From: Mariprofundaceae bacterium
Lineage (GTDB): Bacteria > Pseudomonadota > Zetaproteobacteria > Mariprofundales > Mariprofundaceae
Direction of reading: 5' to 3'
DNA: 64,000 nucleotides
NCBI GenBank assembly: GCA_021772895.1
Contig: JAJFLC010000015.1
Coordinates: 124,001-188,000, forward strand
Shown: positions 31,906 to 53,019 of the stretch, piece after piece
How positions within the stretch are numbered: position 1 is the stretch's first letter
How the letters are laid out: each line of letters starts with the position of its first letter
Notes under the pieces: generated by a model
Databases searched by the model: none
Told to the model about the DNA's origin: nothing
The model's input: the letters and a program-made list of their open reading frames with translations, nothing else
Made by a program: the position numbers and the translations under genes

Positions 31906-32604
31906 TTAGTGTTTAACGTCTTTCCAAACTTCCCGTTTCAACAGCCAAAGTACAAATGTCAGAAGCACAAGGAAACCCATCACCCAAATGCCAATGCGCT
32001 GACGTTCAAGTTGATGTGGATCACCAATAAAGGTCAGAAAGGATGAGACTGCACGTGCCTGCTCTTCCAGGTCAGCCGTTTCACTTTCATCATGCTCAAA
32101 CCATGCCAATGGATCTGGCATAGCAATACGATTACCAGGATAATAGGCATTGTAATTACCATCTTCTACCTTGCCATGTGGATCACTCTCGTAACCAGTT
32201 AGCAAAGAATAAATGTAGTTACCACCGCCACGGCGGGCGCGCGTAATCACAGAAAGGTCAGGTGGAACCTTGCCATACGACTCCGTAGCGTCTTCTGGTG
32301 ACAATTCAGTGATCAGACCTTCAAGCAGCCCTTTGTCACCACGCAGTTCATCAACTTCTTCGCGTGATAGCCCCAGTTCTGGATACGCCATCAGATTACG
32401 ATAAGTAAGGTATTTTGCAGCATGGCAGCCCATACAAACGTCGGTAAATACCGTCAAACCTTTGCGCAGGGTTTCATTATCAAAGGTGATTTCCGTATGT
32501 TTTAATGCGCCGCCACCGGAAGCCGAAGCCATCGCAGGTGCCAACATCAATAACAGTCCGGCAATCAGTGAAAGACGCATGCTTTTCATCATTACTTCCT
32601 TCAT
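31906..32604 (-). CDS. petC: Cytochrome c1
   Basis: Haem c subunit of the bc1 complex that passes electrons from the Rieske protein to soluble cytochrome c. The ATG at 32604 gives a 232-residue protein with a signal peptide (SLIAGLLLMLAPAMASA), the haem site CMGCH near residue 58, the Met ligand region MPDPLAW and a C-terminal membrane anchor (WVMGFLVLLTFVLWLL). GGAGGGG, part of the petB end, is its ribosome site. It is the last gene of petABC; the terminator follows 20 bases later. Confidence 0.96.
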   Translation of the reverse strand: MKEVMMKSMRLSLIAGLLLMLAPAMASASGGGALKHTEITFDNETLRKGLTVFTDVCMGCHAAKYLTYRNLMAYPELGLSREEVDELRGDKGLLEGLITELSPEDATESYGKVPPDLSVITRARRGGGNYIYSLLTGYESDPHGKVEDGNYNAYYPGNRIAMPDPLAWFEHDESETADLEEQARAVSSFLTFIGDPHQLERQRIGIWVMGFLVLLTFVLWLLKREVWKDVKH

Positions 32605-32605
32605 A

Positions 32606-33823
32606 TCAGATCCCCTCCGGCAATGGTTTGGTTTTTTCAAACTTATGCACAAATGGCAGCAGTAAGAAGAAGCCGAAATACACGGATGTTGCAATCGCAC
32701 CAACAATTTTCAATGTTGCAGAAGGTGCAGAGTGACCGCAGTAACCCAGCACTACAACAGAAACAAAAAAGAGAATCACCATTTGACGAAATACCGGACG
32801 GTAACGGGCCGAACGCACCTTTGAACGATCCAGGAATGGAAGTACAAAGAGGATTGCCAGCGATCCACCCATCATAAGCACACCAATCAACTTATTCTCG
32901 AACGTACGTAAAATCGTATACCAAGGTGTAAGATACCATACCGGTGCAATATGCGCAGGTGTCTGTAGATTATTTGCAGGTACAAAGTTATCTACCTCAA
33001 TAAAATAACCCCAGGCTTCAGGATTAAAAAATACAAAGTAGCAATAACCCAGCAGGAACACGCCCACACCCAACGCATCTTTTACTGTATAGTAAGGATG
33101 AAATGGAATCGTCTCTTTCTCCTGATCAATATCAATGCCTTCAGGATTATTGGAGTGAACCACATGCAGCGCATGAATATGCCCACCGACAATTGCAGCC
33201 AGCAACAGCGGGAAAAGATAATGCAGTGAGAAGAATCGGTTCAGCGTTGGATCACCCACCGCGAAACCACCACGCAACAACTGTTGCAAATACTCCCCAA
33301 TCACAGGCAATGCGCCAAACAAATTGGTAATTACGGTCGCTCCCCAGAATGACATCTGACCCCAAGGCAACAGATAACCAAAAAATGCCGCACCCTGCAT
33401 GATCAACAGAATCACAACACCAATGATCCATAACAACTCACGAGGTCCTTTGTATGAACCATAATAAAGACCACGGCCAATGTGCATATAAACCACAACA
33501 AAGAAGGCTGAAGCGCCCACCGCATGCATATAGCGAATCAACCAGCCAAAATTAATATCACGCATAATTCGTTCAACCGAATCAAACGCAACCGTATAAC
33601 CACCATACGTTAACTCAGCGGATGGTTTGTAATACATTACCAGAAAAATACCTGTAACAATTTGCAGAACCAGCACCAAAAGAGCCAGCGAACCAAAATT
33701 CCACATGTAGTTGAAGTTTTTTGGAACCGGATACTCAGTCAGCTGGCTTTTAATAATTGAACCAAGCTGTGTGCGTTCGTCTACCCAATGGAACAGGCGC
33801 GTATTCATCATTTTTTCAATCAC
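32606..33823 (-). CDS. petB: Cytochrome b
   Basis: Membrane core of the bc1 complex with the quinone sites. The 405-residue protein has about eight helices and the paired haem histidines (RYMHAVGASAFFVVVYMH and GGHIHALHVVH), plus GYLLPWGQMSFWGATVI. The Qo-site loop reads PVWY (HIAPVWYLTPWYTILR) instead of the classic PEWY. It is full length, not split into b6 and subunit IV. It overlaps no neighbour; petC starts right at its stop. Confidence 0.97.
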   Translation of the reverse strand: MIEKMMNTRLFHWVDERTQLGSIIKSQLTEYPVPKNFNYMWNFGSLALLVLVLQIVTGIFLVMYYKPSAELTYGGYTVAFDSVERIMRDINFGWLIRYMHAVGASAFFVVVYMHIGRGLYYGSYKGPRELLWIIGVVILLIMQGAAFFGYLLPWGQMSFWGATVITNLFGALPVIGEYLQQLLRGGFAVGDPTLNRFFSLHYLFPLLLAAIVGGHIHALHVVHSNNPEGIDIDQEKETIPFHPYYTVKDALGVGVFLLGYCYFVFFNPEAWGYFIEVDNFVPANNLQTPAHIAPVWYLTPWYTILRTFENKLIGVLMMGGSLAILFVLPFLDRSKVRSARYRPVFRQMVILFFVSVVVLGYCGHSAPSATLKIVGAIATSVYFGFFLLLPFVHKFEKTKPLPEGI

Positions 33824-33835
33824 GTCTCTCCCCCC

Positions 33836-34441
33836 TTATCCGATCAGTACAACTGAATCGGTTTTATATTTATATGGCATAACATGTAAATTCTGCGGCG
33901 CAGGCGATCCATTAACCACCCTTGCAGAAAGATCATAGAAAGAGCCGTGACATGGACAATGCCAGCCACCAGCCCAGTTTTCAGGCACCGAGTCACCCCA
34001 GTCTTCACGACCTGAAGTTGGTTTAAACAGAGGAATGCAGCCCAGATGTGTGCAACTGGCAACTACAATCAAAATCTCAGGTTTAATGGCGCGATAAATC
34101 CGTTTTTCATCGGTATCCATCCACTCTGCCTGTACCGCATCGATCGCTTGTGACATAGGATCTTTCAGCAAATCATCATGACCTTTAACTCTATTAAGCA
34201 TATCAGCCGTACGATTCACCACAAATACAGGTTTACCCTGCCATTGAATCACAACCAGCTGACCTTCTACGACAGTCGATACATCGTATTCGGTTTTTGA
34301 TGCTGCCAATGTATCAGCTGCAGGAAACATACTTCCAACAAAAGGCACCGCTGTTGCACCTGCTGCTACAGCCCCAAGGCCTCCAGCGGCAACATACAGA
34401 AAATTACGGCGCGAATGATCCGCTTTATCCGTCATAGCCAT
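33836..34441 (-). CDS. petA: Rieske iron-sulfur protein of the bc1 complex
   Basis: 201 residues. A twin-arginine-type N-terminus (SRRNFLYVAAGG) leads into the membrane anchor, with a periplasmic Rieske domain. The [2Fe-2S] ligands are in CTHLGC (about residues 127-132) and CPCHGS (about residues 157-162). The stretch GREDWGDSVPEN lies between the boxes. It is the first gene of petABC, and the 113 bases upstream to rpe likely hold the operon promoter. Confidence 0.97.
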   Translation of the reverse strand: MAMTDKADHSRRNFLYVAAGGLGAVAAGATAVPFVGSMFPAADTLAASKTEYDVSTVVEGQLVVIQWQGKPVFVVNRTADMLNRVKGHDDLLKDPMSQAIDAVQAEWMDTDEKRIYRAIKPEILIVVASCTHLGCIPLFKPTSGREDWGDSVPENWAGGWHCPCHGSFYDLSARVVNGSPAPQNLHVMPYKYKTDSVVLIG

Positions 34442-34554: not shown

Positions 34555-35220
34555 TCAAACTTTCTCAGCTAAAGCTCTCAAGTCAGCAATCGCTGCCGCG
34601 TAATCCGGCGTATTATAAACCGCAGATCCAGCCACAAACGAATCTGCCCCTGCACTGGAAGCTTCTTCGATCGTTTTAGGGCTCACGCCACCATCAACAT
34701 GCAAAAAAGCAGAGCTTCCGGCAGCATCAAGCATCGCACGCGTTTCTTTGATTTTATCCGTCACTGCATGAATATAAGATTGTCCGCCGTAACCGGGGTT
34801 CACGCTCATCAACAACACCAGATCAGTACAATGAAGTACGTTTTTAATGGTTGATACAGGCGTAGACGGGCACAACGATACACCGGCCTTACAGCCCAAA
34901 GAGCGGATCAGTTGCAGGGTACGTTCAAGATGCACGCATGTTTCCTGGTGAATGGTGATCATATCCGCACCGGCTTTAACAAAGGCTTCAACCTGAGTTT
35001 CCGGATGTTCAACCATCAGATGCACATCCATCACCTTTTCAGTGTGTGGACGAATCGCCTTAACGATATTGTCACCAATGGTGATCGGAGGAACAAAGGA
35101 ACCATCCATGACATCAACATGGACCCAGTCGCATCCACCTTCATCGATGGCGCGAATTTCTTTTTCCAGGTTTGCAAAATCTGCAGATAAAATTGAGGGG
35201 GCAATATGTACTTTTTTCAT
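34555..35220 (-). CDS. rpe: Ribulose-phosphate 3-epimerase
   Basis: Interconverts ribulose 5-phosphate and xylulose 5-phosphate in the pentose phosphate or Calvin pathways. TIM-barrel motifs are present: APSILSADFANLEKEI, HVDVMDGSFVPP (metal His and Asp), HLMVEHPE, LLMSVNPGYGGQSYI and HVDGGVSPKTI. Length 221 residues is standard. It lies 29 bases after the DUF1573-cytochrome gene. Confidence 0.97.
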   Translation of the reverse strand: MKKVHIAPSILSADFANLEKEIRAIDEGGCDWVHVDVMDGSFVPPITIGDNIVKAIRPHTEKVMDVHLMVEHPETQVEAFVKAGADMITIHQETCVHLERTLQLIRSLGCKAGVSLCPSTPVSTIKNVLHCTDLVLLMSVNPGYGGQSYIHAVTDKIKETRAMLDAAGSSAFLHVDGGVSPKTIEEASSAGADSFVAGSAVYNTPDYAAAIADLRALAEKV

Positions 35221-35249: not shown

Positions 35250-35927
35250 TCAGTCCAGCGACAATAACCACTTGGAGAGTGTAAGAACCTGTTTCTGTGT
35301 CAGTGGCCCACCTTCTTCATTTGCAAAGCCGGGCATTTGTGGCGTCCCTGTACCATGAGAAATAAGATGTTGCAGCGCTATTTCATCTTCATACCCGTTC
35401 AATGCCGGCGCATAAGCACCTTTTCCACCCTCACCATGGCACATCACACATGCCGCATTATAAATTTCTTTACCCATTGTTTTTCCCTGCACCGGGTCAA
35501 AGTGGCAAGATGCACACTTGCCATCAAAAAGTCCTCGTCCCTCCCGTACCAGGTGAGGATTTTCAATCACATTCAATTTAAGAATCGCCTTTGCAACATG
35601 CCCGGCCGAATCCGTAATCCGAATCCATTTTGTCACATCACCCTGTTTGACTGTGCTATCGATTCGCACATCCAACTCTGTAAAGGCACCCGGTGCCAAC
35701 AGCTTGGATTTCGGCTCAACAGCTGTGCAGCCACATGAAGCCTGTATATCTGTAATGGTGACCACCGTATCACTGTTATTACGAATCAGAAGCGTACCCA
35801 TCGCCTCTTCACCCTCTTTGACCGTACCCATATCCAATGTTTCAGGCTGAATATGCAAATGCGGCAACGCTTCTGCGCATACATTCACAGAAAAAAAGAA
35901 GCTCAGGAGAACAAAAACAAACTTCAT
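35250..35927 (-). CDS. Exported DUF1573 - c-type cytochrome fusion
   Basis: A 225-residue periplasmic protein. After a signal peptide (FVLLSFFFSVNVCA) comes a DUF1573 Ig-like domain (about residues 23-125) with the typical SCGCT motif, then a C-terminal cytochrome region with two haem sites, CASCH and CVMCH (about residues 140 and 163), and a Met region at TPQMPGF. The start overlaps the sdhE stop (TGATG). A role as periplasmic electron carrier or copper/haem-related factor is inferred from domains only; placement beside succinate dehydrogenase suggests a respiratory link. Confidence 0.85.
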   Translation of the reverse strand: MKFVFVLLSFFFSVNVCAEALPHLHIQPETLDMGTVKEGEEAMGTLLIRNNSDTVVTITDIQASCGCTAVEPKSKLLAPGAFTELDVRIDSTVKQGDVTKWIRITDSAGHVAKAILKLNVIENPHLVREGRGLFDGKCASCHFDPVQGKTMGKEIYNAACVMCHGEGGKGAYAPALNGYEDEIALQHLISHGTGTPQMPGFANEEGGPLTQKQVLTLSKWLLSLD

Positions 35928-36154
35928 CAACGCTCCAGCCATGGACGCAACGCATCCGGCAAAGGAATTTCTCCATGCATCATAGCCAGTAACTCAGGGG
36001 TGTCAGTTGCAATCATTGCTTCTACCTGTGAAATAATTTCACTATCACCTGTAGAAAGCGCCTGTTCCAGCGGTGCCAACCATGCATCAAGCTCAAGCAT
36101 CCCCTGCCGATTCAAGCGATAACGAAGCCTGCGTATATCACGCTCATATTTCAT
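35927..36154 (-). CDS. sdhE: Succinate dehydrogenase flavinylation factor SdhE
   Basis: A 75-residue SdhE/CptB (DUF339) protein that assists covalent attachment of FAD to SdhA. The family core is RYRLNRQGMLELDAWL, a variant of the RGxxELD motif, followed by helices typical of the five-helix fold. It lies 167 bases downstream of sdhB on the same strand, which fits its role, and is coupled by TGATG to the DUF1573-cytochrome gene. Confidence 0.92.
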   Translation of the reverse strand: MKYERDIRRLRYRLNRQGMLELDAWLAPLEQALSTGDSEIISQVEAMIATDTPELLAMMHGEIPLPDALRPWLER

Positions 36155-36320: not shown

Positions 36321-37031
36321 TTACGATTTTCGAATCAGTAACGTGCGTTTGATATGATCAATGGCTTTGGTAGGATTTAATTCTTTGGGGCAGCAGTCCA
36401 TACAGTTCATAATTTGATGGCAACGATAGAGTTTAAAGGCATCCTCAAGTTGATCCAAACGTTCACCGATTTTTTCATCCCGGGAATCTTTCAACCAGCG
36501 ATCTGCCTGAAGAAGTGTTGCAGGGCCTAAAAAACGGTCACCATTCCACCACCATGACGGACATGAAGTCGTGCAGCAGCCACACATAATGCATTCATAG
36601 GAACCATCCAGTTCAGCACGTTCTTCCGGCGATTGAAGGCGCTCATGCTCCGGCAAAGGTGAATCAGCCTGTAACCACGGTTTAATAGAACGATATTGAT
36701 CAAAAAAATGTTCCATATCGACAACCAGATCACGAATCACATTCATGCTTGGCAATGGCCGAACTTTGATCGGTTGTTTTAACCCTGCAATCGGCGTGAT
36801 ACAAGCCAGTCCATTCACACCATTGATGTTCAGACCATCAGAACCACATACACCTTCGCCGCAGGATTTTCGATAGGTGAGCGTACCATCAATATGCCAT
36901 TTGATATAATTCAAGACATCAAGAAGCTTCATACCCGCCTTTGTGACAGGCACTTCAAAGGCCTGCATACTCGGTTCAGCATCCTTTTCAGGATCGTAGC
37001 GATAAATTTCAAGTTTGATGATATTACTCAC
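36321..37031 (-). CDS. sdhB: Succinate dehydrogenase iron-sulfur subunit
   Basis: Electron-transfer subunit between the flavin and the quinone site. I choose the GTG at 37031 (236 residues) because GAGGAG precedes it and the protein then begins at the usual beta strand; the open frame to 37100 has no family match. The [2Fe-2S] site is SCGEGVCGSDGLNINGVNGL with Asp in place of the third Cys, as in Escherichia coli, and the [4Fe-4S]/[3Fe-4S] sites are CIMCGCCTTSCP and CHQIMNCMDCCPKELNP. Confidence 0.97.
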   Translation of the reverse strand: MSNIIKLEIYRYDPEKDAEPSMQAFEVPVTKAGMKLLDVLNYIKWHIDGTLTYRKSCGEGVCGSDGLNINGVNGLACITPIAGLKQPIKVRPLPSMNVIRDLVVDMEHFFDQYRSIKPWLQADSPLPEHERLQSPEERAELDGSYECIMCGCCTTSCPSWWWNGDRFLGPATLLQADRWLKDSRDEKIGERLDQLEDAFKLYRCHQIMNCMDCCPKELNPTKAIDHIKRTLLIRKS

Positions 37032-37096
37032 CTCAAAACTCCTCGCATCGCAGTATTTGAAATGACATTGCACAGGACAAAATAAAGTTATACATA

Positions 37097-38908
37097 TCAA
37101 TAAACTCGCTTCTTGGGTGGAAACGATTCGACACTCATCGGAATGGTTCTGACCGGCTTGTAATCCAACTCGACTTTGCCATCTTTAATACTTGCCAGGG
37201 TATGTTTCATCCATTGTTCATCATCACGTTCAGGATAATCATCACGGGCATGCGCACCCCGGGATTCACTGCGCGCAAGTGCGCCTGAAGCTGTTACACG
37301 AGCAAGAGCCATCAGGTTTTCAAGCTCCAGAGCCTCAACAAGCTCAGTGTTAAAAATTCGATTTTTATCTTCGATAGAACCGCTTGAAAGGCTTTCTAAA
37401 GTCTTTTCCAGAAGTACCACACCCTCTGCCATCACTTCTTCAGTTCTATAGACACTAAAATGATCCTGCATCACCTTCTGCATCTCATCGCGGATTTTGG
37501 ATATTCTGATACTTTCATTTGAATCATCAGACAACCAGCGTTCCACCCGCTCCACGCCATCTTTCCAGCAATCAGGGTCAAGTTTTGCATGATAATTTTT
37601 ATCTTCCAGATGTTTGATAACCTGATCACCACAGGCCCGGCCAAACACAATAATTTCCAGCAATGAGTTACCACCCAAACGATTTGCACCGTGCACCGAT
37701 GTACACGCAGCCTCACCAATCGCATAAAGGCTTGGCATGACTTTTTCTTTCTCACCAGCCATGCCCTTACCCTTCTCACCGGCATACACAACTTCTCCAA
37801 ATCGATTCGTTGGAACACCTCCCATTGTATAATGGGCTGTTGGCATCACAGGGATTGGCTCTTTGGTACAATCCACATCTGCAAAACGAAGAGCCAGTTC
37901 ATGGATATTAGGCAAACGTTCCATGATCACATCTTTACCGAGGTGATCCACTTTAAGCAGTGCATGATCCTTGTTTGGCCCACATCCACGCCCTGCTTTA
38001 ACCTCCAGCGCAATCGCACGGGAAACCACATCGCGGCTGGCAAGATCTTTGGCAGTGGGGGCATAACGTTCCATAAAACGCTCACCCTCAGCGTTCAGTA
38101 AATAACCACCCTCACCTCGAACAGCCTCTGAAATCAAAGGGCCCACATCAGCAATGCCAGTCGGATGAAATTGGAAAAACTCCATATCTTCAACTGGCAG
38201 TGATGCATCCAACACCAACGCACCACCATCGCCCGTACAGATATGCGCATTGGTCGTCATTTGAAAAACTCGACCAGCACCACCCGTTGCCAATATCACG
38301 GCTTTGGCTTGAAAAAGATGATATCGACCTTCAGCAATATCCCAGGCCATGACACCCTGACAACCATCTTTGTCCATAATCAGATCAAGCGCAAAAAACT
38401 CATCATAAAAATGTGTCCCCGTCCGAAGGTTTTGTTGATACATTGTATGCAAAATAGCGTGCCCTGTTCGATCTGCCGCAGCACAGGTACGCGAAGCTTG
38501 CCCACCCTCTCCAAACTCTCTGGATTGACCGCCAAACGGACGTTGATAAATCGTACCATCTTCCAGACGTGAAAAAGGGACACCCTGATGTTCAAGCTCA
38601 CGCACCAGACGAGGTGCCGCTCTGCACATATATTCAATGGCGTCCTGATCACCCAGATAATCCGAGCCTTTTACCGTATCATACATATGCCAGTGCCAGT
38701 GATCAGAATTTACATTGCCAAGTGCCGCGTTCATACCCCCCTGAGCTGCAACTGTATGTGAACGCGTTGGTAAAACTTTACTGACCACTGCAACCCGATG
38801 ATTGGCGTCCGCAAGTTGCAGTGCACAACGCAGACCGCCTCCGCCTGCCCCGATAATCACAACATCATGAAAGTGATGTTCAATCTGATCGTTTGAAAGG
38901 TATGACAT
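37097..38908 (-). CDS. sdhA: Succinate dehydrogenase flavoprotein subunit
   Basis: Oxidises succinate to fumarate in the citric acid cycle. The 603-residue protein has the FAD loop [15 protein letters not shown] (about residues 16-30), the covalent-FAD histidine in [22 protein letters not shown], the catalytic Arg region near [10 protein letters not shown] and [18 protein letters not shown]. It follows sdhD by 3 bases and precedes sdhB. Confidence 0.98.
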
Positions 38909-38911
38909 AAA

Positions 38912-39268
38912 TTAACCGCCCCAAGCCCAGATAAGTGCCAGCCACCAAATACCGATGGTTCCCATGATCAAAAGTATCACCCCTGTCAAAGGAACACGCA
39001 TCAATGCCGCAGGCACATAATCTTCAATGATAAGTTTCAGACCAAAATATGCATGCACAATGATCGCAAAAACAAGTAATGTATGCAGTAGCAAAGGGAC
39101 AAAATGGCTGAAAATTTCAAGCAATTCAAATTGATCCAAAACGCCCATATAAACAGCACATAACAATGCAAATGGAAGAGGAATAAGCACAAGCAGCATC
39201 ACGGCAGAAAGGCGCTGCCAATACCAGTCAGTCAAACCATTATGAGCAGCACCCCTATCTTTATTCAT
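38912..39268 (-). CDS. sdhD: Succinate dehydrogenase membrane anchor subunit D
   Basis: A 118-residue membrane subunit with three helices. The family signature is HAYFGLKLIIEDYVP (about residues 69-83), containing the haem b ligand His and the conserved DY pair. The N-terminal TDWYWQRLSAVML matches SdhD start regions. It lies between sdhC and sdhA, as usual. Confidence 0.93.
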   Translation of the reverse strand: MNKDRGAAHNGLTDWYWQRLSAVMLLVLIPLPFALLCAVYMGVLDQFELLEIFSHFVPLLLHTLLVFAIIVHAYFGLKLIIEDYVPAALMRVPLTGVILLIMGTIGIWWLALIWAWGG

Positions 39269-39295
39269 TATAATTAATTACCATTTTTTCCATCA

Positions 39296-39688
39296 TCATA
39301 AAAGCCAACCCAAAAGAAGTGCAGAAGCGACTGCAATGCTAAGAACAATGCGTGCACTCAGGCGCATCATCCGTTGAGATTCACACCAGCCTGCATCCAG
39401 CATAAGAAAACGAATGCCATTACAAAAGTGAAAAGTGATTGCCACACCCACGCCCCATAATATCAAACGACCCATGCCTGAATGCAGCAATGCAAGCGCT
39501 TGGTCAAAGTCCTGTGGTGTGCCTAACATGCCATGCAATACCCAAAGATAAAAAGGTAAAAACAATACCAACAGCACCCCACTTCCCCGATGCGCAATAC
39601 TGGCCAACATGGGTGCACGCCACCTATAGATACTAAGCCTCGGTGATAAAGGCATGGGTTTTCTTTTTCCACTCACTTTCTGATGCAT
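39296..39688 (-). CDS. sdhC: Succinate dehydrogenase cytochrome b556 subunit
   Basis: A 130-residue membrane subunit that binds haem b and the quinone. It has the family stretch RAPMLASIAHRGSGVLLVL (about residues 25-43) and HFCNGIRFLMLDAG with the haem histidine. Three hydrophobic segments are visible. It is the first gene of the sdhCDAB operon; the promoter should lie in 39689-39811. Confidence 0.94.
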   Translation of the reverse strand: MHQKVSGKRKPMPLSPRLSIYRWRAPMLASIAHRGSGVLLVLFLPFYLWVLHGMLGTPQDFDQALALLHSGMGRLILWGVGVAITFHFCNGIRFLMLDAGWCESQRMMRLSARIVLSIAVASALLLGWLL

Positions 39689-44727: not shown

Positions 44728-45768
44728 TCATACCGCCCTTAATCGCTTCATTTCAGGCACAATTCGCTCGGCATCGAGTGCCATGTGTTCTGGTGCCATG
44801 TGTGCGTAAACCTGCACCATCGACGGTGTCTCCCAACCGCCAAGTTTCTGTAAAATGTGCAGTGGCGTTCCACTCTGCACATGCCAGCTTGCCCATGTAT
44901 GGCGAAGGTCGTGCCACCTGAAATCTGTGATACCGGCACGGCTCAGTGCCTTAGTCCATGAATGATTGTTGAATCGGCTTAGAGGTTTGCCTTTAAACTC
45001 AAATACGCAAACACTCTGGATATTGTCGCGCTTTCTACGAAAAAGCAAATTCATAGCCATGCTGTTCAACGGAACTCCAATCGATTTTTTTCCTTTCGCC
45101 TGGTCGCCATAAACCCACATGACAGACCTTTTTAAATCGACCTGATCCCATTGTAAATCTGCGCAGTTCGACTGGCGCAATCCGGTTTGCAATGTAAATA
45201 ATGCAGCATCGGCAAGATGTAACGGCAATTCTCTGATCAAGCTGTCGGACTTCTCTCTCTCTAACCATCTGATGCGATGTTTTGGCTCCGGGCGCATCCG
45301 AATTGCGGGCGCGTGTTCCAGCCATGAAAAACGCCCATCTGTCCACTCTCGTTCTGCCTTGCGCAGTACAGAACGAATCAATGCCGCATAGCGGTTTGCG
45401 CGGGAAGCCGATGATTCCTTCTCTTTGATATCAAGAGTACGATCTACCAGGTCACGTGTAATATCTTCTAACGGTTTATTCCACAGATGCGAATCCAACC
45501 ACTTAAACATAGCAATATCATCCTGCAAAGACTTTTTATGTCCTTGCTTCTCTTTACACCACTGTAATACTGCCTGTTGCCATAATTTTCTTGGCCTCTC
45601 CCCGAGTCTTACACGACGCCACAAGTCACGCTTGAGATTATCATGCCACTCCTGTGCTGCTTGTTTATTGACTTGTGTTGAGACAAGCCCAGTAGATCGG
45701 CGTATGCGTCCGATTCCTTTAATGGAGAAATCAACGTGCCAGCATCCATCCCGTTTCCTGATTGCCAT
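44728..45768 (-). CDS. Tyrosine recombinase (phage integrase)
   Basis: A 346-residue site-specific recombinase. Catalytic residues are in TGLRQSNCADL (Arg I), HDLRHTWASW (His-x-x-Arg) and VYAHMAPEH with the nucleophile Tyr; the usual LGH motif reads LGGW. GGAGGTGA stands before the ATG. It lies beside tRNA-Lys, the likely attB. Its first 160 bases overlap the end of the excisionase-like gene in another frame. Confidence 0.95.
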   Translation of the reverse strand: MAIRKRDGCWHVDFSIKGIGRIRRSTGLVSTQVNKQAAQEWHDNLKRDLWRRVRLGERPRKLWQQAVLQWCKEKQGHKKSLQDDIAMFKWLDSHLWNKPLEDITRDLVDRTLDIKEKESSASRANRYAALIRSVLRKAEREWTDGRFSWLEHAPAIRMRPEPKHRIRWLEREKSDSLIRELPLHLADAALFTLQTGLRQSNCADLQWDQVDLKRSVMWVYGDQAKGKKSIGVPLNSMAMNLLFRRKRDNIQSVCVFEFKGKPLSRFNNHSWTKALSRAGITDFRWHDLRHTWASWHVQSGTPLHILQKLGGWETPSMVQVYAHMAPEHMALDAERIVPEMKRLRAV

Positions 45769-46013
45769 AGTTCACCTCCTATAGCATTTCTTTTACATGG
45801 AGACCCATTACGAATCCATTTCATCAAATCTTCCTTAATAAACACCCACGATCGGCCACATTTTGATGCACCGGGGATATCACCGTTTTTAGCCATTTTT
45901 CGCAGCGCATCCATGCACATATATGCCACAGCGGAGGCAATCTGTAGATCAAGTGTTTCCATATTCACAGCCATCACTCGTAGCTGATCCTGTGTGAAGT
46001 TTTCCCGCATCAT
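45609..46013 (-). CDS. Excisionase-like DNA-binding protein
   Basis: A 134-residue protein with an N-terminal winged-helix domain of the excisionase/MerR type (YMCMDALRKMAKNGDIPGASKCGRSWVFIKEDLMKWI, shown here only as landmarks MCMDALRKMA and GRSWVFIKEDL). The C-terminal part includes SDAYADLLGL, a block I associate with this phage family. GAGGG precedes the ATG at 46013. It is upstream of the integrase and overlaps it by 160 bases; it probably controls direction of recombination. Confidence 0.75.
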   Translation of the reverse strand: MMRENFTQDQLRVMAVNMETLDLQIASAVAYMCMDALRKMAKNGDIPGASKCGRSWVFIKEDLMKWIRNGSPCKRNAIGGELWQSGNGMDAGTLISPLKESDAYADLLGLSQHKSINKQHRSGMIISSVTCGVV

Positions 46014-46201
46014 AATCCCTCATCCACTTTACATGGCTGTAATCGATAGTAGATATTTTTCACATCACTAACGTCCCTGCGAAAAAGTTCATTGCATTCA
46101 TTACAAACACGAATAGCCATGCGAGAATCAACATAAACTGGCCCTCTAATTTGTCCGTCCGGATCTACAATGACATGAGCATCAATCATATTTTCGCACA
46201 C
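46010..46201 (-). CDS. Small phage protein with a Cys pair
   Basis: A 63-residue soluble protein; the middle has VCNECNELFRRDV, a CxxC pair that may bind zinc, and an acidic end. Its stop overlaps the excisionase-like start (ATGA). The GTG at 46201 or ATG at 46189 may be the start; neither has a clear ribosome site. Function unknown. Confidence 0.6.
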   Translation of the reverse strand: MCENMIDAHVIVDPDGQIRGPVYVDSRMAIRVCNECNELFRRDVSDVKNIYYRLQPCKVDEGL

Positions 46202-46226
46202 ATAATTTTAGAGCCTGAATCCACCC

Positions 46227-46526
46227 TCATGAATGCATCTCAACATTTCCGTGATAACTCTCAATAGCTTTTTTTATGCGATTATTCACGAGGTTCATAC
46301 GATCACGAGCCAATCTAAAATGAGCGCCCAAATCTCCCGGTGAAAGAAGCATATCAGCTTCGAGATTTATCTCGATTTCAGCTTTTAATACGGATGTAAT
46401 CAACATCTCACGATTTAGCCGTGCCCGTTGCTCAATCCAAACATCCATTTCAAGATTAAATTCAATCAGTTGAATATCTATGCTTGACGGTTCCTGAACA
46501 CACACCTGCATCATTCGCATCTTCAT
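46227..46526 (-). CDS. Small helical phage protein
   Basis: A 99-residue protein starting at the ATG at 46526 that overlaps the stop of the small membrane gene (ATGA). It is mostly alpha-helical and charged (IEQRARLNREMLI, LARDRMNLVNNRIKKAIESY), suggesting a coiled-coil partner. A longer open frame to 46613 would add residues antisense to nothing but in conflict with the overlapping small gene. Function unknown. Confidence 0.6.
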   Translation of the reverse strand: MKMRMMQVCVQEPSSIDIQLIEFNLEMDVWIEQRARLNREMLITSVLKAEIEINLEADMLLSPGDLGAHFRLARDRMNLVNNRIKKAIESYHGNVEMHS

Positions 46527-46654
46527 TGGTTTGGTACCCAGATAAATACTTCCAATACAAATAACGCAACTAATAACAACAAAATCAGCACACCTTTCGG
46601 ATGAATCTTCCAACGTCGCTCACCCATGTCTCTCATCATTCCGCTACCTTCCAT
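46523..46654 (-). CDS. Tiny single-pass membrane protein
   Basis: A 43-residue protein from the ATG at 46654 (AAAGGGAT upstream) or 38 residues from the ATG at 46639 (GGAAGG upstream). A basic N-terminus (RDMGERRWKIHPKG) is followed by one hydrophobic helix (VLILLLLVALFVLEVFIW) and ends PNQ. The stop overlaps the next start by ATGA, strong support for a real gene although it is short. Small single-pass proteins in phage early operons often act in lysis timing or exclusion; the role here is unknown. Confidence 0.6.
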   Translation of the reverse strand: MEGSGMMRDMGERRWKIHPKGVLILLLLVALFVLEVFIWVPNQ

Positions 46655-46888
46655 CTTATCCCTTTAAAAACTTATTAAAATTTTGATCCTGATAACTCCA
46701 GAAACACTACTGCGACTGCCGAAAACATTTAGCCCAACGATAAAATAATAGAAGATGTTCCATCATCCCATGAGGTTAAAAAATTCTAATTTGATGGATA
46801 TACCACAAATCACTTTGGCCTAGTGGTCTGCTACGATAAATAAAACGATAGGGGATGCACCGCCTGCTCGAATATGGCTCCATTACAT

Positions 46889-47035
46889 TCATCCATGCGC
46901 CTCATCAATCATACGACGGATTTCATCGGACTCTTCACGGCTGAACTCAAAACTTTCATTTTGAAACTCATTGATAGACCAGATCAGCAGTAACACGGTC
47001 AATCCAACTATAATTACTAGCACTGCAGAAATCAT
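46889..47035 (-). CDS. Small single-pass membrane protein with acidic tail
   Basis: A 48-residue protein: an N-terminal helix (ISAVLVIIVGLTVLLLIW, residues 2-19) and an acidic, charged tail (SREESDEIRRMIDE). GGGGGGTGAG stands before the ATG at 47035, and its start overlaps the stop of the preceding 46-codon gene (ATGA). Downstream 46655-46888 holds no gene I can support. Function unknown. Confidence 0.6.
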   Translation of the reverse strand: MISAVLVIIVGLTVLLLIWSINEFQNESFEFSREESDEIRRMIDEAHG

Positions 47036-47172
47036 TTGCTCACCCCCCATGTTATTAATGATGACACATGACGAAAAAGCACTTTAAATCGCATAGACAG
47101 CAAGTTGATATCTTTCAATACCGATCTCATTTCAGCTGATTTAGCGCTTGATTTTTCGTTGGTCAGATGCAT
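47032..47172 (-). CDS. Small phage protein filling a gap
   Basis: A 46-residue basic, partly hydrophobic protein (MHLTNEKSSAKSAEM start, VLFRHVSSLITWGV near the end). Its ATG shares a base with the preceding stop (TGATG) and its stop overlaps the next start (ATGA), so it fits exactly between two genes. That fit is the main evidence. Family not recognised. Confidence 0.55.
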   Translation of the reverse strand: MHLTNEKSSAKSAEMRSVLKDINLLSMRFKVLFRHVSSLITWGVSK

Positions 47173-47423
47173 CAGGTAAGATCCCTCTTCACTGTTTCCC
47201 GCGCCTCAGCAATGGCAACCTTTGTCATCTGCACTGCACGCCATGCAAGCACCCTTTCGTTTGTACGTTTTAGTTCAGCATTGAGAATAGCAAACTCAGG
47301 CAACCAGCCTCTGCTACGACTCCTCTTCAGGCAGGATTCCACATTCCGACGGTGCTTGATTAATCTGGCCAACATCTGCCGACGTGCTGCTACAGATACA
47401 GCTGGTGCGATTAGAAACTTCAT
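47172..47423 (-). CDS. Small basic phage protein
   Basis: An 83-residue basic, helical protein (AARRQMLARLIKHRRNVESCLKR as landmark ARRQMLARLIKHRR). I start at the ATG at 47423 because it overlaps the cro stop by ATGA; an ATG at 47429 is also possible. DNA or RNA binding is suggested only by charge. Confidence 0.6.
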   Translation of the reverse strand: MKFLIAPAVSVAARRQMLARLIKHRRNVESCLKRSRSRGWLPEFAILNAELKRTNERVLAWRAVQMTKVAIAEARETVKRDLT

Positions 47424-47632
47424 GCGCATACCGCTTCCGATTCGGGCTGCGCAAACGCGCGCGCTCGCATTTCAACATCACCACCAGACTTCCATGCAAC
47501 ACCCAAAACACGATCAGCAATTGCCTGTGGAAGAGCATCTGGCCACATGTAAATTGCATGCCTACCAAGACTCAGAGCCTCAGCCAATGGAGACACGCCA
47601 TTAAAAATTTTAATTGCATCCGCTTTCGTCAT
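47420..47632 (-). CDS. Cro-like regulator
   Basis: A 70-residue DNA-binding protein. The helix-turn-helix segment VSPLAEALSLGRHAIYMWPD matches Cro/YdaS-type regulators with the WP pair after the recognition helix, and the end is variable. It is divergent from the repressor gene, with operator sites between them. By analogy to lambda it would turn down the repressor promoter in lytic growth. The ATG at 47632 is chosen over the ATG-less extension to 47662. Confidence 0.85.
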   Translation of the reverse strand: MTKADAIKIFNGVSPLAEALSLGRHAIYMWPDALPQAIADRVLGVAWKSGGDVEMRARAFAQPESEAVCA

Positions 47633-47640
47633 AATCCGTA

Positions 47641-47690
47641 ATGTAATTATCTTTACATACATGTCAACACCTTTACATCATAAAATGTAA
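47641..47690. promoter_or_regulatory. Repressor/Cro operator sites
   Basis: Two 18-base sites 20 bases apart have the form ATGTAA-N6-TTACAT: a perfect one at 47641-47658 and one with a single mismatch (ATGTCA) at 47661-47678. A further ATGTAA half-site at 47685-47690 points toward the repressor start. The 20-base spacing places sites on the same face of the helix. They lie between the divergent cro and repressor genes. Confidence 0.8.
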
Positions 47691-47701
47691 AGATTCCTAC
47701 C

Positions 47702-48505
47702 ATGAATCAAGGAGATCGCCTCAGAGCAGCCAGAAAAGAGGCTAAACTATCGCAAGAAGCGCTGGCTGATCGCGCAAATATTAACCGTGTAACTGTCACT
47801 CAGATTGAGAGCGGCAGCGTCAAAACCATTGACGGGGAAAAACTCATCAAAATATGTGATGCGCTGAGCATTACCGAAAGATGGTTGGTTTTCGGGCAAG
47901 CGGACATCAATGCCAAGGCCGCAGGCACTCGCCTCAAAACCTACATCGAAGAACAAGGCATACCAAATGAATCACTATCCAAGAGCTCAAGCGTCTGCCT
48001 CAATAAAATTCGTAATGCCGAAAAAGGCATCTATAAGCTATCTGAAAGCGATTACCAAAAGATTGCCCAAGTGCTCGAAAAACCTGCCGCCGATATCATG
48101 TATGGTGCAGACCGCAGGCACCCGCTTGAAGTAGAACATTCAGAGTCAGAGCAGCATATACCATCAACTTCAACAGTTTGGCCAGAGAAACCTGAAGATA
48201 TCAGTGTCGCCTTCATTGAAGACATTGCCGAGCGAGTCAGCAAAGCAATCAATGTAGATATTACCGAGATACGTAAAACTATCGCTGGCGCTGTCATGGA
48301 TCATTATGCCGAGCAAACGACATCCGAAGCGGAGTTCCACAAAGCAGCCGAAGACATGCTTAAAAGCCGCGAAGCAAACCTGCCGGATGACATGAAATTA
48401 AGCGACATTGACCGCAAGCACCGCCTTGCCGAACTGATTAAAGAGATGCGCAAGCATACATCGAGAAAAACAGGCAAAAGTCACCAAGTCAGAAAAATAG
48501 CTTGA
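47702..48505 (+). CDS. Phage repressor with XRE helix-turn-helix
   Basis: A 267-residue protein. The N-terminal XRE domain is clear (LSQEALADRANINRVTVTQIE, cited as LSQEALADRANINRVTV, about residues 17-33). A second, weaker XRE-like unit seems to follow (residues 78-135), and the rest is helical and acidic then basic. There is no S24 peptidase Ser/Lys region, so it is not a LexA-like self-cleaving repressor; induction may need another protein or route. It faces cro across the operator. Confidence 0.85.
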   Translation: MNQGDRLRAARKEAKLSQEALADRANINRVTVTQIESGSVKTIDGEKLIKICDALSITERWLVFGQADINAKAAGTRLKTYIEEQGIPNESLSKSSSVCLNKIRNAEKGIYKLSESDYQKIAQVLEKPAADIMYGADRRHPLEVEHSESEQHIPSTSTVWPEKPEDISVAFIEDIAERVSKAINVDITEIRKTIAGAVMDHYAEQTTSEAEFHKAAEDMLKSREANLPDDMKLSDIDRKHRLAELIKEMRKHTSRKTGKSHQVRKIA

Positions 48506-48604
48506 ACCACAGCCATTAATGAATAACAAAGTTCACGATTATTCACCGACTCCAGCAACTTCTTCAGCGTACAGCAGTGCGAATCGGCTAGAATAAAAAT
48601 AACA

Positions 48605-48802
48605 TCACGCATAATCCCTGTTGGTTTGGGAGTGAAGCTGTAGCGCCTCTTCCTGTATTTTCATTCGCTTAAGTTCAGCATAGGTACATAAATCACCGCG
48701 CTCTCTAACCATCTGCATCCAATTGTTCAATGCTCTGATTCTTTTTTCCTGAACAGCATCCATCGCCGCTGATGCTATTCTACTCAATCTTCCAATATCC
48801 AT
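48605..48802 (-). CDS. Small helical phage protein
   Basis: A 65-residue charged helical protein (GRLSRIASAAMDAVQEKRI landmark, YAELKRMKIQEEALQLH end). The ATG at 48802 follows GGGTGGGG. It is at the downstream end of the late operon, after the holin-type gene, and converges with the repressor. Family not recognised. Confidence 0.6.
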   Translation of the reverse strand: MDIGRLSRIASAAMDAVQEKRIRALNNWMQMVRERGDLCTYAELKRMKIQEEALQLHSQTNRDYA

Positions 48803-48960
48803 TATCCCCACCCTTGTTTCAACTCCATTCAGAAGTCATTCAGGTGCAGACTCTAAAACGCTGAAAGATTAAAAAAAGGTTAAGATTCTCTTTGTATGAA
48901 AAGGACAATACGATAAACTGTGACGGGTAACAAACAGCTACTGATAGCAGTTTTCTTTTA

Positions 48961-49539
48961 TTATTTCCGGCTCAACACCGAAGCCAGCAACCCTGTAATG
49001 CTTGCTGGTATTGCCGCACCGTTCGCTGCATCGAGCTTGTTCTTTTGTTCATGTTTCAAAACTCCGAAATATGAATGCAACAACACAACAAATGGGCCAA
49101 TTGCAGCAAGGATAAATTGCCAACCATCCATCACCGCCTTGACCAACGCAGCATCTTTGATCGAAACGCCATAAGCCCATACAGCCACAACCACAATGAC
49201 AGTAAATGCCACCACATGGAATGCACCCTTGGCAATGTATGGCCGGGTTGTGTGTGGTGATTTTGTATCTGCTTCAAGCATGGCACGTACGGTTGAATGT
49301 GACTCTTTGATCTGAGTAATATCAACATCGAATTCTTTCTCCATCACACTGGCACGCTGCTCTGGAGGCAGCGAGTTCACCGCAGACTTAACATCTTCAC
49401 CTGTAGCATTTGCCGAAAGTTTCTTGTCATCCGGCAACAATGCGTTAATCGCACCAACGATAAGTCCACCACCTGGTACGACTTCTCGAATGATCCCGGA
49501 ACCTACGGTTTTAACGATATCCCATATCTTCATACCCAT
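48961..49539 (-). CDS. 3TM-type holin-like membrane protein
   Basis: A 192-residue protein. The N-terminal half is soluble (VGSGIIREVVPGGG, EDVKSAVNSLPPEQRAS), then two hydrophobic helices (about residues 106-126 and 140-158) and a third weak one at the C-terminus. This is the pattern of the three-membrane-segment holin family. Its position beside the endolysin supports a role in lysis. The start may also be the ATG two codons later. Confidence 0.75.
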   Translation of the reverse strand: MGMKIWDIVKTVGSGIIREVVPGGGLIVGAINALLPDDKKLSANATGEDVKSAVNSLPPEQRASVMEKEFDVDITQIKESHSTVRAMLEADTKSPHTTRPYIAKGAFHVVAFTVIVVVAVWAYGVSIKDAALVKAVMDGWQFILAAIGPFVVLLHSYFGVLKHEQKNKLDAANGAAIPASITGLLASVLSRK

Positions 49540-49540
49540 A

Positions 49541-49954
49541 TCAATATACCCCCGTTCTGATCATTTTAGCCAGATCATCAGCCCTTTTACCCACCTGTAC
49601 AGCCCACTGTGAATCAAGTGCTTCAACTGCCGCTCTTTCCCATTCACCATATTTCATAGCTGATAACATATTTTTAAACTTCATCAATCCCGATATACCG
49701 AGGTTAAAGCACATGTCGACCAGCACATCCTGTCGTACTTTATCGAGCTGACTAAACCATGAGAGATTCTGCTCAAGCTGGCTACGACATTTACGAACAT
49801 CATCATCAAGCAGCAGCATCGCCTGCTCAAGTGTAATTCCCTTATCATCCAGATTATGTCCGATGCCGATAGTCAGTTTACCTGCCGTACAACGATACGG
49901 CTTGAGACGTACCCCTTCGTGATGCATTAACATTTCTTTTACGCGTTCTATCAT
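49541..49954 (-). CDS. Phage lysozyme (GH24 endolysin)
   Basis: A 137-residue T4-type lysozyme that hydrolyses murein. The catalytic Glu is in MHHEGVRLKPYRC, and the family motif TIGIGHN follows. The triad reads Glu-8aa-Cys-5aa-Thr, the known alternative with Cys at the place of the T4 Asp. No signal or SAR segment is seen, so the holin must release it. It overlaps the next gene by four bases. Confidence 0.93.
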   Translation of the reverse strand: MIERVKEMLMHHEGVRLKPYRCTAGKLTIGIGHNLDDKGITLEQAMLLLDDDVRKCRSQLEQNLSWFSQLDKVRQDVLVDMCFNLGISGLMKFKNMLSAMKYGEWERAAVEALDSQWAVQVGKRADDLAKMIRTGVY

Positions 49955-50289
49955 CGTTTATCACCTCCACCCCACCGTCTCATGATAATAGCTCGCACTA
50001 ATTCAGGGACAAATTGAAGAAGCCGTTCGATGGCAATCAGCATAAACACAAACAGTTCAGACAAACCAATTCCCAACGGTATCGACATCAGTGCGCTTGG
50101 CAGACCATGGTCACCATTGGGAAAGTAAATAATAATGAGTGCCATCGAGACCAGTCCCCAAATAAACAGGGCACCGGCCAGTATCAGCCATTCATGCCAT
50201 TTCAATTTCTCGCCTGTGCGATGTTTATAAAACAAGCCACCCAACGTTGTTCCAACGCTTGAGATGACAAACAGAGTGCTATGTAGCAT
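49951..50289 (-). CDS. Phage membrane protein, possible second holin
   Basis: A 112-residue protein with hydrophobic segments near residues 2-18, 34-56 and 68-90 and a basic tail (IIMRRWGGGDKR). Its stop overlaps the lysozyme start by ATGA. Size, helices and place make it a candidate holin or antiholin, but the sequence matches no class I know well. Confidence 0.65.
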   Translation of the reverse strand: MLHSTLFVISSVGTTLGGLFYKHRTGEKLKWHEWLILAGALFIWGLVSMALIIIYFPNGDHGLPSALMSIPLGIGLSELFVFMLIAIERLLQFVPELVRAIIMRRWGGGDKR

Positions 50290-50305
50290 ATTTTATCTCT
50301 CGCCT

Positions 50306-50677
50306 TTATACAGCACGAATCAAATCAATGATTGCAGCAACGGATGTAGAGATGTTTACCGTACCATCCTTAACGGCTTGCAACTTTGCTTTTGCTGCGA
50401 GCGCTTCAATGGCTCCGATTTTTAATTTCCACTGCCCACGTTTTGCAATCACATAATCAGCAAACTGTAACGGCGACATTGTGGCTGATTCATGCTCCGC
50501 CAACATTTCAAATCCAGTGATGTTCAACGGGTCCCCACCCGCTGCTACATGTGCCTTGAAGTTGATGGCATCATCATATTTCAGGAGATAAACACCATCC
50601 TTGCCATGTGTTGCTATGCGACCCCTTGCAAGCGCACTCTCAATATTGATGTAGTTTATTACACTGTCAGATAACAT
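50306..50677 (-). CDS. Phage protein of unknown function
   Basis: A 123-residue soluble protein between the tail-fibre gene and the lysis genes. A region SPLQFADYVIAKRGQWKLKIGAIEALAAKAK (landmark PLQFADYVIAKRGQWKLK) is followed by an Ala-rich helix. It may be a tail-associated protein, but no family is recognised. Confidence 0.65.
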   Translation of the reverse strand: MLSDSVINYINIESALARGRIATHGKDGVYLLKYDDAINFKAHVAAGGDPLNITGFEMLAEHESATMSPLQFADYVIAKRGQWKLKIGAIEALAAKAKLQAVKDGTVNISTSVAAIIDLIRAV

Positions 50678-50678
50678 G

Positions 50679-51647
50679 TTAAGCCACCTTCACAAGTTTC
50701 ATTCGACTGAATACATTGTCCCGGAGGTTCCACGAATTTGCGCCACCAAAACCAAGATTGGCAACACCAGAAGCCGTCCATACTTTTAAAACTACGGTTG
50801 CAGATATAGGCAATGTAAAAACATCGCCGTACATACCTACATCAATCGTTGTCGCCCCTGAAAAACCGGTCTGTGGTTCTATAATTGGTGTTGCCAAGTC
50901 TAATGTATTATACAGTGATACCATGCAGCCGCCCGGTGCATATAAATGTGCTATGGCATGATCAACGTAATAAGTACCCGCTGGCAATGTCACTTCATTG
51001 GCGATAAGCGATGCCCCTGCAATTGTATTTAAAACAACATTATTAAGAGGAACTGTCAGCTCTGTATTTAATACTGTCGAGCCTCCAGTGACGTTGTAAG
51101 CGGTCCTGTGGTTAAGATGAATAGCTGGCAACGTAGCGATATTACCAGCTGGGTCAGTCCATACGGTGTTGAAGTCGACAGCGTCAATTTTTGACAGAAG
51201 CTGCCCAGCCGTACCGCTCGCAGGTACACCCACACCATTCAATCCATCCGCCCCCGGATCACCTTTTGCCCCCACAGGGGTCACAGCTGTTGCTGTGGTC
51301 GCCAACTTTGTGATACCTGTAATTTCAAGCGGTGATACGCCAGCTGGAAGTTCCCATGTTTCAACCCAGGATTCATTACCAAATGAAAAGGTCGCCAGAT
51401 ATGCACCAGACACAACGTCATGCCCTGCACCTGATGTAGGTGCAAGAAAAATGCTTGTCGGATTACCTGAAGTGTCAACCAGTTTACCACCTACAATGGC
51501 TACAACGATTGGCGTTTTTGTGACAAGCCGACGTGTTAATCCTTCATCATATTCCCACACTCCATTTGGTTGAATATTGATCAATCCATTCAGCAAGTCG
51601 CCATTTGCCGATGCAATTTCACTGGTTACAGTTTGAATCTCAATCAT
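50679..51647 (-). CDS. Tail fibre/receptor-binding protein with collagen-like stretch
   Basis: A 322-residue structural protein. A short collagen-like segment (GAKGDPGADGLNGVG, about residues 128-142) separates an N-terminal domain from a C-terminal beta domain of C1q/TNF-like character (AIHLNHRTAYNV, LPAGTYYVDHAIAHL). Such proteins are often the distal receptor binders. Start overlaps the preceding gene by ATGA. Confidence 0.78.
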   Translation of the reverse strand: MIEIQTVTSEIASANGDLLNGLINIQPNGVWEYDEGLTRRLVTKTPIVVAIVGGKLVDTSGNPTSIFLAPTSGAGHDVVSGAYLATFSFGNESWVETWELPAGVSPLEITGITKLATTATAVTPVGAKGDPGADGLNGVGVPASGTAGQLLSKIDAVDFNTVWTDPAGNIATLPAIHLNHRTAYNVTGGSTVLNTELTVPLNNVVLNTIAGASLIANEVTLPAGTYYVDHAIAHLYAPGGCMVSLYNTLDLATPIIEPQTGFSGATTIDVGMYGDVFTLPISATVVLKVWTASGVANLGFGGANSWNLRDNVFSRMKLVKVA

Positions 51648-51967
51648 AACTTATTACTTCCGAATTCATTTTTATAGGATATTTCGCAATGCTTTTTACC
51701 AAAGAAGGAGTCGATGAAGCGTTCAAAAAAAGCCGCGTATTTATTGCCGTCAACACGAAGGAAATATGTCCGCGAACTGACCGTCCAATCAGGCTCACCA
51801 TAAAGGATAGCGCCACCCAGTTGATCCAGACCGATGGCAATATCCCACCATAAAGCAGATAGAGAACGAGATGTGATGACATGTCGAATGATCTGCACGA
51901 TCACCGCCGGAACGATCAGAATCACCGTCAAGGCGATCGCGACAAGCATCAGGCCGAAGACTTTCAA
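51644..51967 (-). CDS. Phage membrane protein near tail genes
   Basis: A 107-residue protein with an N-terminal helix (MLVAIALTVILIVPAVIVQII) and a conserved-looking block IGLDQLGGAILYGEPDWTVSS, seen in many phages beside lysis or tail genes, ending with KKHCEISY. Function unknown. It overlaps both neighbours by four bases. Confidence 0.7.
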   Translation of the reverse strand: MKVFGLMLVAIALTVILIVPAVIVQIIRHVITSRSLSALWWDIAIGLDQLGGAILYGEPDWTVSSRTYFLRVDGNKYAAFFERFIDSFFGKKHCEISYKNEFGSNKL

Positions 51968-53016
51968 AGCGTCACCTTCACGCCCATTACACTAGGAGGT
52001 GTCGCCAACCCTGAAATTGGGACGCTATCAATCACAAGGCTTGGATGTGCTAACATTTCAGAAATAGTTGCATGATCATCTTCGTGAACCAGTTCAGCCG
52101 CTGCCATGGCAAGCTGTGAAAAAGGATCAACCAAGACAACCGTTCCATGTGCTAGGTTTGCATTACCTTCAAATGGGTGTGGTACATTTGGCATATTACG
52201 CAGTTTTCGTGTCATGGTGATTTCAACCTGATCAAAGACAGGGTTTGCAAGTGCTGCGATATTTTCCTGTAATTTCACAGAGTCAGCCAAAGCCTCAGTC
52301 TTTGGCCAGGGGAGACGTTTCACAAGTTCATACTGTTTTTTACCCTTGCTTGTGATAATGTTCTTTGGGCTAATGTGATCGGAGCCATGGTATGCCCATG
52401 AAGGATCAGCAGCAACGGAGGTTGCAAGAATAGTTCCAGCTGGAATGCCTGCTCTGTTTCCGGCCTTTGCCATAAGTGCATAAACAAAAACAGGGATATC
52501 GCCATTCCCAAGATTATAGGGTGGCGATGCCTGAATATACCGGCTATACACATAGCCAGTTCGAGGGCTACTGGATGTGCTACGCATGCCAACGCGCGCA
52601 GCATAGGTTGTGAAATGAGCATGAGAAGATATATAGATATTCGCACCCGGACTGGCGCCAAGAAACCAACCCATTGTGTAACTACCACCGGTGAGTACAA
52701 TTTCACCGTTCTGAACGCCTGTGAAATAATGAGATTGTGATGCTGTTGCAGATTTCAACTCTGACTGACCAACAGCACTGGCAACAATCTCAGACTGGCC
52801 AACCCCGTTAGCAGCTATTTTTGATGCAGTAATTGAATCATTTGCAAATTTAGCTGATGTAACAGCTAGATCATTAATCGCTGCCGTTTGAACTTTCGGT
52901 GCGCCAGCATCACCATTAGCCATTGCTGCAGTATTATCACGTAATGAATTCATAAGTGCTACAGTGATTGGCGAATCCGCATCAATATCTGTATTAGGGA
53001 TCGTTGTCCAAACCAT
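51964..53016 (-). CDS. Phage tail fibre protein
   Basis: A 350-residue protein. The N-terminal half has repeated AINDLAVTSAKFANDSITASKI-type strands (landmark NDSITASKI) typical of trimeric fibres; the C-terminal half holds KLRNMPNVPHPFEGNAN and a DPFSQLAMAAAEL segment. It is probably a side or tip fibre; the exact role is not known. Confidence 0.7.
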   Translation of the reverse strand: MVWTTIPNTDIDADSPITVALMNSLRDNTAAMANGDAGAPKVQTAAINDLAVTSAKFANDSITASKIAANGVGQSEIVASAVGQSELKSATASQSHYFTGVQNGEIVLTGGSYTMGWFLGASPGANIYISSHAHFTTYAARVGMRSTSSSPRTGYVYSRYIQASPPYNLGNGDIPVFVYALMAKAGNRAGIPAGTILATSVAADPSWAYHGSDHISPKNIITSKGKKQYELVKRLPWPKTEALADSVKLQENIAALANPVFDQVEITMTRKLRNMPNVPHPFEGNANLAHGTVVLVDPFSQLAMAAAELVHEDDHATISEMLAHPSLVIDSVPISGLATPPSVMGVKVTL

Positions 53017-53019
53017 TTT

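Follow-up and report, generated by a model that had tools for sequence, protein, structure and literature searches.

What does a DUF1573 domain do when it is built into the same predicted exported polypeptide as a c-type cytochrome? The question is raised by a gene in a 64,000-nucleotide stretch of a Mariprofundaceae genome (GenBank assembly GCA_021772895.1, contig JAJFLC010000015.1), referred to here as the window. A sequence-only reading of this gene had proposed that DUF1573 works with periplasmic electron transfer in some bacteria and that, in an iron-oxidizing lineage, the fusion could belong to a special respiratory chain. We examined the protein's domains, predicted structure, distribution, gene neighborhood and motif variants.

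Domain architecture and predicted structure of the fusion protein

The gene lies on the minus strand of the window at 35250..35927, with its ATG at 35927 and its stop codon ending at 35250, and encodes 225 amino acids; all window features given below are on this same strand. Pfam and matches to the predicted model and its folds place a DUF1573 domain at residues 26-108 (35604..35852; PF07610, 57.7 bits versus a cut-off of 26.1, E 1.2e-15), and no other DUF1573 match was found in the window genome. Sequence and alignments locate the CGC motif, which is typical of the DUF1573 family, at residues 65-67 (35727..35735; codons TGT GGC TGC). They also locate two CxxCH motifs, CASCH at residues 138-142 (35502..35516) and CVMCH at residues 160-164 (35436..35450). 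The proposed union of a DUF1573 domain with a segment bearing two haem sites is therefore borne out by Pfam and by exact coordinates.

The two haem motifs are not equivalent. A class I cytochrome c domain was recognized by Pfam and fold matches at residues 152-224 (35256..35474), with Cytochrome_CBB3 at residues 152-204 (46.1 bits versus a cut-off of 27) and Cytochrom_C at residues 152-224 (42.5 bits versus 21.3). It covers the second CxxCH only, leaving the first outside, and the class I combination of a CxxCH and a distal Met within the class I fold was found for the second haem only. The candidate second ligand of haem 2 is the invariant Met198 (35334..35336); that of haem 1 is His125, in an NPH motif (35553..35555), which is conserved at 90% or more in both a 29-row and a 59-row alignment.

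The N-terminus of the window copy looks like an ordinary signal peptide with no clear lipobox (approximately residues 1-18, 35874..35927, assigned from the sequence and comparison with relatives). A simple pattern detected lipobox-like N-termini in 41 of 58 homologues. These N-termini agree with the earlier prediction that the fusion protein is exported, and many relatives of the window protein probably carry a lipid anchor.

An AlphaFold model built with the 59-row alignment had a mean pLDDT of 91.5 and a pTM of 0.76, and consisted of eight strands followed by helices. The beta half matched 2qsv (Z 13.2, rmsd 1.9, 96 aligned), a functionally uncharacterized P. gingivalis protein whose sequence profile also matched (E 2e-5), as well as HYDIN/ASH/MSP/PapD-like domains. 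The helical half, modeled alone (pLDDT 88.4), matched the NirN cytochrome c domain (Z 10.7, rmsd 1.7, 72 aligned), NirS cytochrome c domains and c6-type cytochromes; these matches begin near model residue 30, with the first haem motif (model residues 20-24) outside them. The model thus confidently predicts a HYDIN/PapD-like beta domain joined to a class I cytochrome c domain. Fold likeness alone shows no function.

Distribution of the fusion and conservation of its motifs

A profile search, read manually, found the full-length fusion in 67 of the 78 genomes of the order, a count that includes one gene cut by a contig end (G003) and one genome with two matches in a single open frame (G039). The program's own tally of 73/78 also takes in weak matches to the cytochrome region only. 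Within the order, 39 genomes count as good here (completeness of 90% or more, contamination of 5% or less); the fusion is present in 35 of these and missing from four (G004, G007, G009 and G040). A protein search of 61 genomes, comprising the window's own and 60 relatives, matched 34, of which 29 (own included) belong to the same family.

Beyond the order, fusions were found in Bacteroidota (L116), Acidobacteriota (L117 and L118), an unplaced bacterium (L115), an Actinomycetota metagenome-assembled genome (L120) and one further Pseudomonadota genome (G041). Misassembly, or the chance joining of two genes, would make the fusion an artifact; the same fusion in most of the order and in genomes of other phyla rules this out for practical purposes. 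Within Acidobacteriota, 7 of 297 genomes matched at E 1e-25 or better, with 8 matches in total. DUF1573 matches occurred in 44 of 397 Pseudomonadota genomes, and the window's order accounts for 38 of these. Genes called around the matches in G060, G094, G173, G229 and G357 contained no CxxCH or CGC, as read with a crude gene caller that missed the G041 gene (later read directly) and may miss others among Pseudomonadota. The Bacteroidota fusion (L116; G434:C1:2300655-2300942) has a second DUF1573-like match farther upstream in the same open frame.

Neither the 29-row alignment nor the 59-row alignment that includes other phyla shows any variation in the CGC motif, the two CxxCH motifs or the Met-Pro of the second haem. 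Across 68 collected fusions, the first motif reads CGC in 64, UGC (encoded with TGA) in 3 and CSC in 1; the two haem motifs are always 16 or 17 residues apart, and a His lies 7-20 residues ahead of the first haem motif in 67 of 68, the exception being G041. The patterns used to collect sequences demanded a conserved core that included CGC. The CGC pattern matched 30/30 loci of one set and 56/58 of another, in which the exceptions were a gene cut short (L119) and a TGA form (L120), so the collecting pattern hid no other forms in these sets.

Linkage of the fusion to sdhE and respiratory genes

In the window, sdhC/D/A/B and sdhE lie on one side of the fusion gene and rpe and the bc1 genes on the other, all on one strand. 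The sdhB, sdhA, sdhD and sdhC genes span 36321..39688 (sdhB assigned by Pfam, the others by eye), and sdhE occupies 35927..36154 (Pfam Sdh5, 31 bits versus a cut-off of 27). On the other side are rpe (34555..35220, by Pfam) and petA, petB and petC of the bc1 complex (31906..34441; Rieske protein and cytochrome c1 by Pfam, petB by eye). The stop codon of sdhE (TGA) and the ATG of the fusion overlap by one shared base, TGATG. Both the translational coupling to sdhE and the proximity to rpe and bc1 genes noted earlier hold, the latter with Pfam support for Rpe, Rieske and cytochrome c1. Elsewhere in the window, inspection by eye revealed a run of phage-like frames at 44728-64000, some of which resemble an integrase (44728-45768), a lysozyme (49541-49954) and, farther along, long tail genes, and two overlapping frames at 8191-9026 that resemble an IS3-type transposase pair.

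Respiratory genes nearby would also suit a protein that delivers or senses copper or another soft metal for respiratory enzymes, with CGC binding the metal and the haems acting as partner or reporter. CGC would resemble the copper site of Cox11, in which an Ig-like domain likewise bears a CxC-type pair. By eye, no copper-oxidase gene was noticed beside the fusion in the window, and we regard this explanation as improbable.

Of the order's 54 loci (L061-L114), 51 have sdhE directly upstream of the fusion, and in these 51 a possible fusion start overlaps the sdhE stop or lies no more than about 35 bases away. Two of the three exceptions (L083 and L100) are at contig ends; at the third (L097) no sdhE was seen upstream of the fusion. 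In many loci of the order the pair is surrounded by sdhB, rpe, petA and petB. Thirteen loci of the Ghiorsea clade showed no sdhABCD, rpe or pet gene in the fetched flanks, which varied in length, with sdhE and the fusion still adjacent; the pair therefore stays together where the other operon genes are elsewhere. At L065 and L075, the following genes resemble hflK, hflC, htpG, tgt and secDF by eye. Genus g8, taken here as Ghiorsea, has a close SdhA (at least 70% identity) in 12 of 16 genomes and a distant match only in the other four; in G010 and G019, SdhA is encoded on the contig that bears the fusion, approximately 19 kb away.

That the gene is coupled to sdhE points to co-expression with the maturation of succinate dehydrogenase (SDH) rather than to contact between the two proteins, since SdhE is cytoplasmic but the fusion protein is predicted to be exported. 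A strict dependence of SDH on the fusion gene was considered and rejected: in G007, sdhE is followed directly by rpe, with no fusion. G009 appears to have the same order, its sdhE-like frame being seen by eye and missed by the Sdh5 search, which is too weak for counting absences (E 1.1e-6 even in the window genome). Given the operon of G007, and apparently that of G009, the fusion gene is dispensable. In G004 and G030, SdhB and sdhE are present and followed by other genes instead of the fusion; in G426, SdhB is present with a contig end approximately 240 bases beyond, which makes this genome uninformative on loss of the fusion. SdhB was not found in the fusion-less genomes G001, G002, G015, G028, G427 and G040, so that the missing fusion in these may reflect a gap or a joint loss.

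Outside the order, the window's operon genes were not found beside the fusion in L115-L118, and the neighbors of the fusion differ between groups. Thus, the zetaproteobacterial gene context is lineage-specific and the fusion protein is not. These data bear on a dedicated Fe(II)-oxidation carrier, for example one that replaces Cyc1 in Ghiorsea. The excerpted text of PMC7029218 states that ZOTU9, which includes Ghiorsea, has no cyc1 and must depend on a different periplasmic carrier, and the fusion is present in 16/16 genomes of genus g8. Against such a role, the fusion also occurs in other phyla and is missing from 4/39 good genomes of the order, and we consider it very doubtful. The broader suggestion of a chain special to iron oxidation is likewise not supported: the fusion is found in Acidobacteriota, Bacteroidota and Actinomycetota, with neighbors other than sdh or bc1 genes in L115-L118, and some of the good genomes of the order that lack it keep SDH.

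Apparent exchange of cysteine and selenocysteine at the CGC site

The window gene encodes the first Cys of CGC with TGT and so has no in-frame TGA there of the kind that would mark selenocysteine (Sec). In three fusions (L120, L159 and L160) this codon is TGA, and the frame continues through both haem motifs. In a 68-row tree, each TGA form pairs as sister with a Cys form with good support, which implies no fewer than three changes; the branch leading to L120 is long and its placement less sure. The Cys sister of L159 is L156 (69% identity over 171 aa).

SelA was found in the genomes of L159 and L160 (G532 and G499) and was not found in that of L156. It is also present in five Cys-form genomes (G435, G436, G496, G556 and G582), and searches of the L120 genome returned neither SelA nor tRNA-Sec; both points argue against a simple rule pairing Sec with SelA. 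G435 and G436 each gave a clear tRNA-Sec, and the top match in G437 was a tRNA-Ser.

Evidence for SECIS elements in the TGA genes is mixed. Rfam returned nothing relevant from six loci. The longest hairpin near the expected place was 7 bp in L160, 5 bp in L159 and 4 bp in L120, the last two falling within the range of eight Cys controls (3-6 bp). Folding energies of the TGA genes were not clearly below those of shuffled sequences (z between -0.77 and 1.48); z was lower still in three of the Cys controls.

Two further variants were seen during this survey. Stand-alone DUF1573 genes in two Acidobacteriota (L145:1761-2060 and L146:1616-1918) have an in-frame TGA at the first motif Cys and a 9-bp hairpin downstream; they sit in G435 and G436, both of which have SelA and tRNA-Sec. 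The genome of L160 encodes a second fusion (L161) in which CSC replaces CGC.

Sec comes at a high cost, and its use generally points to a reactive residue. Invariant in the alignments and seemingly interchanged with Sec, the CGC/UGC site appears chemically active, and the apparent exchange suggests that the DUF1573 domain participates in redox chemistry. An alternative explanation is a plain periplasmic carrier serving bc1 and an oxidase, in which DUF1573 provides docking or anchoring and CGC is a structural pair. The class I cytochrome fold and the position between sdh and bc1 genes fit such a carrier, and invariance of CGC alone is compatible with a structural role; the apparent swap of the first Cys for Sec in three separate fusions is not what a structural pair would lead one to expect. 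We judge a plain carrier unlikely, if still the strongest of the rival explanations.

A proposed redox relay

The reading that we favor, with confidence that is about evenly balanced, is that the fusion is a c-type cytochrome with two haems, exported and in many cases lipid-anchored, that has DUF1573 as a built-in redox head. In this relay, the Cys/Sec-Gly-Cys site, borne by the Ig-like DUF1573 domain, would carry out thiol or selenol chemistry, or hold a soft metal, and would trade electrons with haem 1, which is probably His/His-ligated via the conserved upstream His. Electrons would pass between haem 1 and haem 2 (His/Met, in the class I fold), and haem 2 would exchange with the pool of bc1 and cytochrome oxidase. 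Zetaproteobacteria would make the protein together with SdhE.

The relay is supported by the Pfam domain content, the invariant motifs, the upstream His, the TGA/Cys exchange, the sdhE linkage and the confident fold; that haem is attached, which residues ligate it, what the substrate is and which way and by what path electrons run are inferred. Several observations count against it: G041 is without the upstream His, the recognized cytochrome fold does not take in the first haem motif, neither SelA nor tRNA-Sec was found for L120, five Cys-form genomes bear SelA, the L159 and L120 hairpins are weak, sdh/bc1 neighbors are missing outside the order, and the operons of G007 and G009 are without the gene. 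The proposal that DUF1573 works with periplasmic electron transfer gains strength from the unvarying CGC of the alignments and from the apparent swap between Cys and Sec; its restriction to iron oxidation is not supported.

More tentatively, and with rather less confidence than in the relay itself, we suggest that these fusions are new periplasmic thiol/selenol:cytochrome c oxidoreductases, with DUF1573 as the catalytic or substrate-binding head and the haems as the link to the respiratory chain. If so, the fusion would reveal the type of redox partner used by the wider DUF1573 family. A haem-linked DUF1573 kept across most of an order, coupled there to sdhE and with apparent Sec forms in other phyla, makes it testable whether CGC reacts with a thiol, a metal or an oxidant and thereby alters the redox state of the haems. 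Several periplasmic electron carriers of Zetaproteobacteria are unidentified according to the excerpted text of PMC7029218, and the fusion is an added candidate among them.

Comparison with known systems

Each domain was already known separately, as were Sec forms of DUF1573, whose UGC versions are recorded in PMC9312934, PMC13188914 and PMC2398784. The fusion, its linkage to sdhE across the order and the recurrent Cys/Sec exchange were not found in the literature searched, which covered few subscription journals and yielded no report of a DUF1573-cytochrome fusion. The portions seen of the PV-1 genome paper (PMC3179512) and of a review of Zetaproteobacteria (PMC6443915) do not mention the fusion gene. 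No function is stated for DUF1573 in the excerpts of PMC9312934, PMC13188914, PMC2398784 and PMC10434189, the last of which counts a DUF1573 gene among the members of the Bacteroides thetaiotaomicron iron stimulon, with no link to haem seen.

The DUF1573 family, including OS_HP2 (NF041425), shares with the window protein an Ig-like domain with a CGC/UGC motif. Against NF041425 (OS_HP2_seleno) the window protein scored 37 bits and three relatives 57.5, 60.7 and 63.6, all below the cut-off of 100. The excerpted Sec-form records in PMC9312934, PMC13188914 and PMC2398784 name no cytochrome partner, the word "cytochrome" being absent from PMC2398784, whereas the window protein has a cytochrome fused to it.

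The class I domains of NirS, NirN, cytochrome c6 and CcoP resemble the fusion's second haem region in fold and in CxxCH-Met layout; relative to them, the fusion adds a haem motif 16-17 residues earlier and a DUF1573 domain. The periplasmic-side placement of the Cox11 copper site is another possible analogy to the fusion's CGC; Cox11 is not known to contain haem, unlike the fusion with its two haem motifs.

A further comparison is with the Cyc1/c4-type diheme carriers of iron oxidizers. Cytochrome c4 proteins consist of two class I domains, whereas the window protein has one (residues 152-224) and the haem motifs of the fusions are spaced by only 16-17 residues, and 1h1o, labeled cytochrome c-552, matched it weakly (E 0.52). 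Like the fusion as predicted here, these carriers are exported two-haem proteins, and the two may occupy a similar position in the chain.
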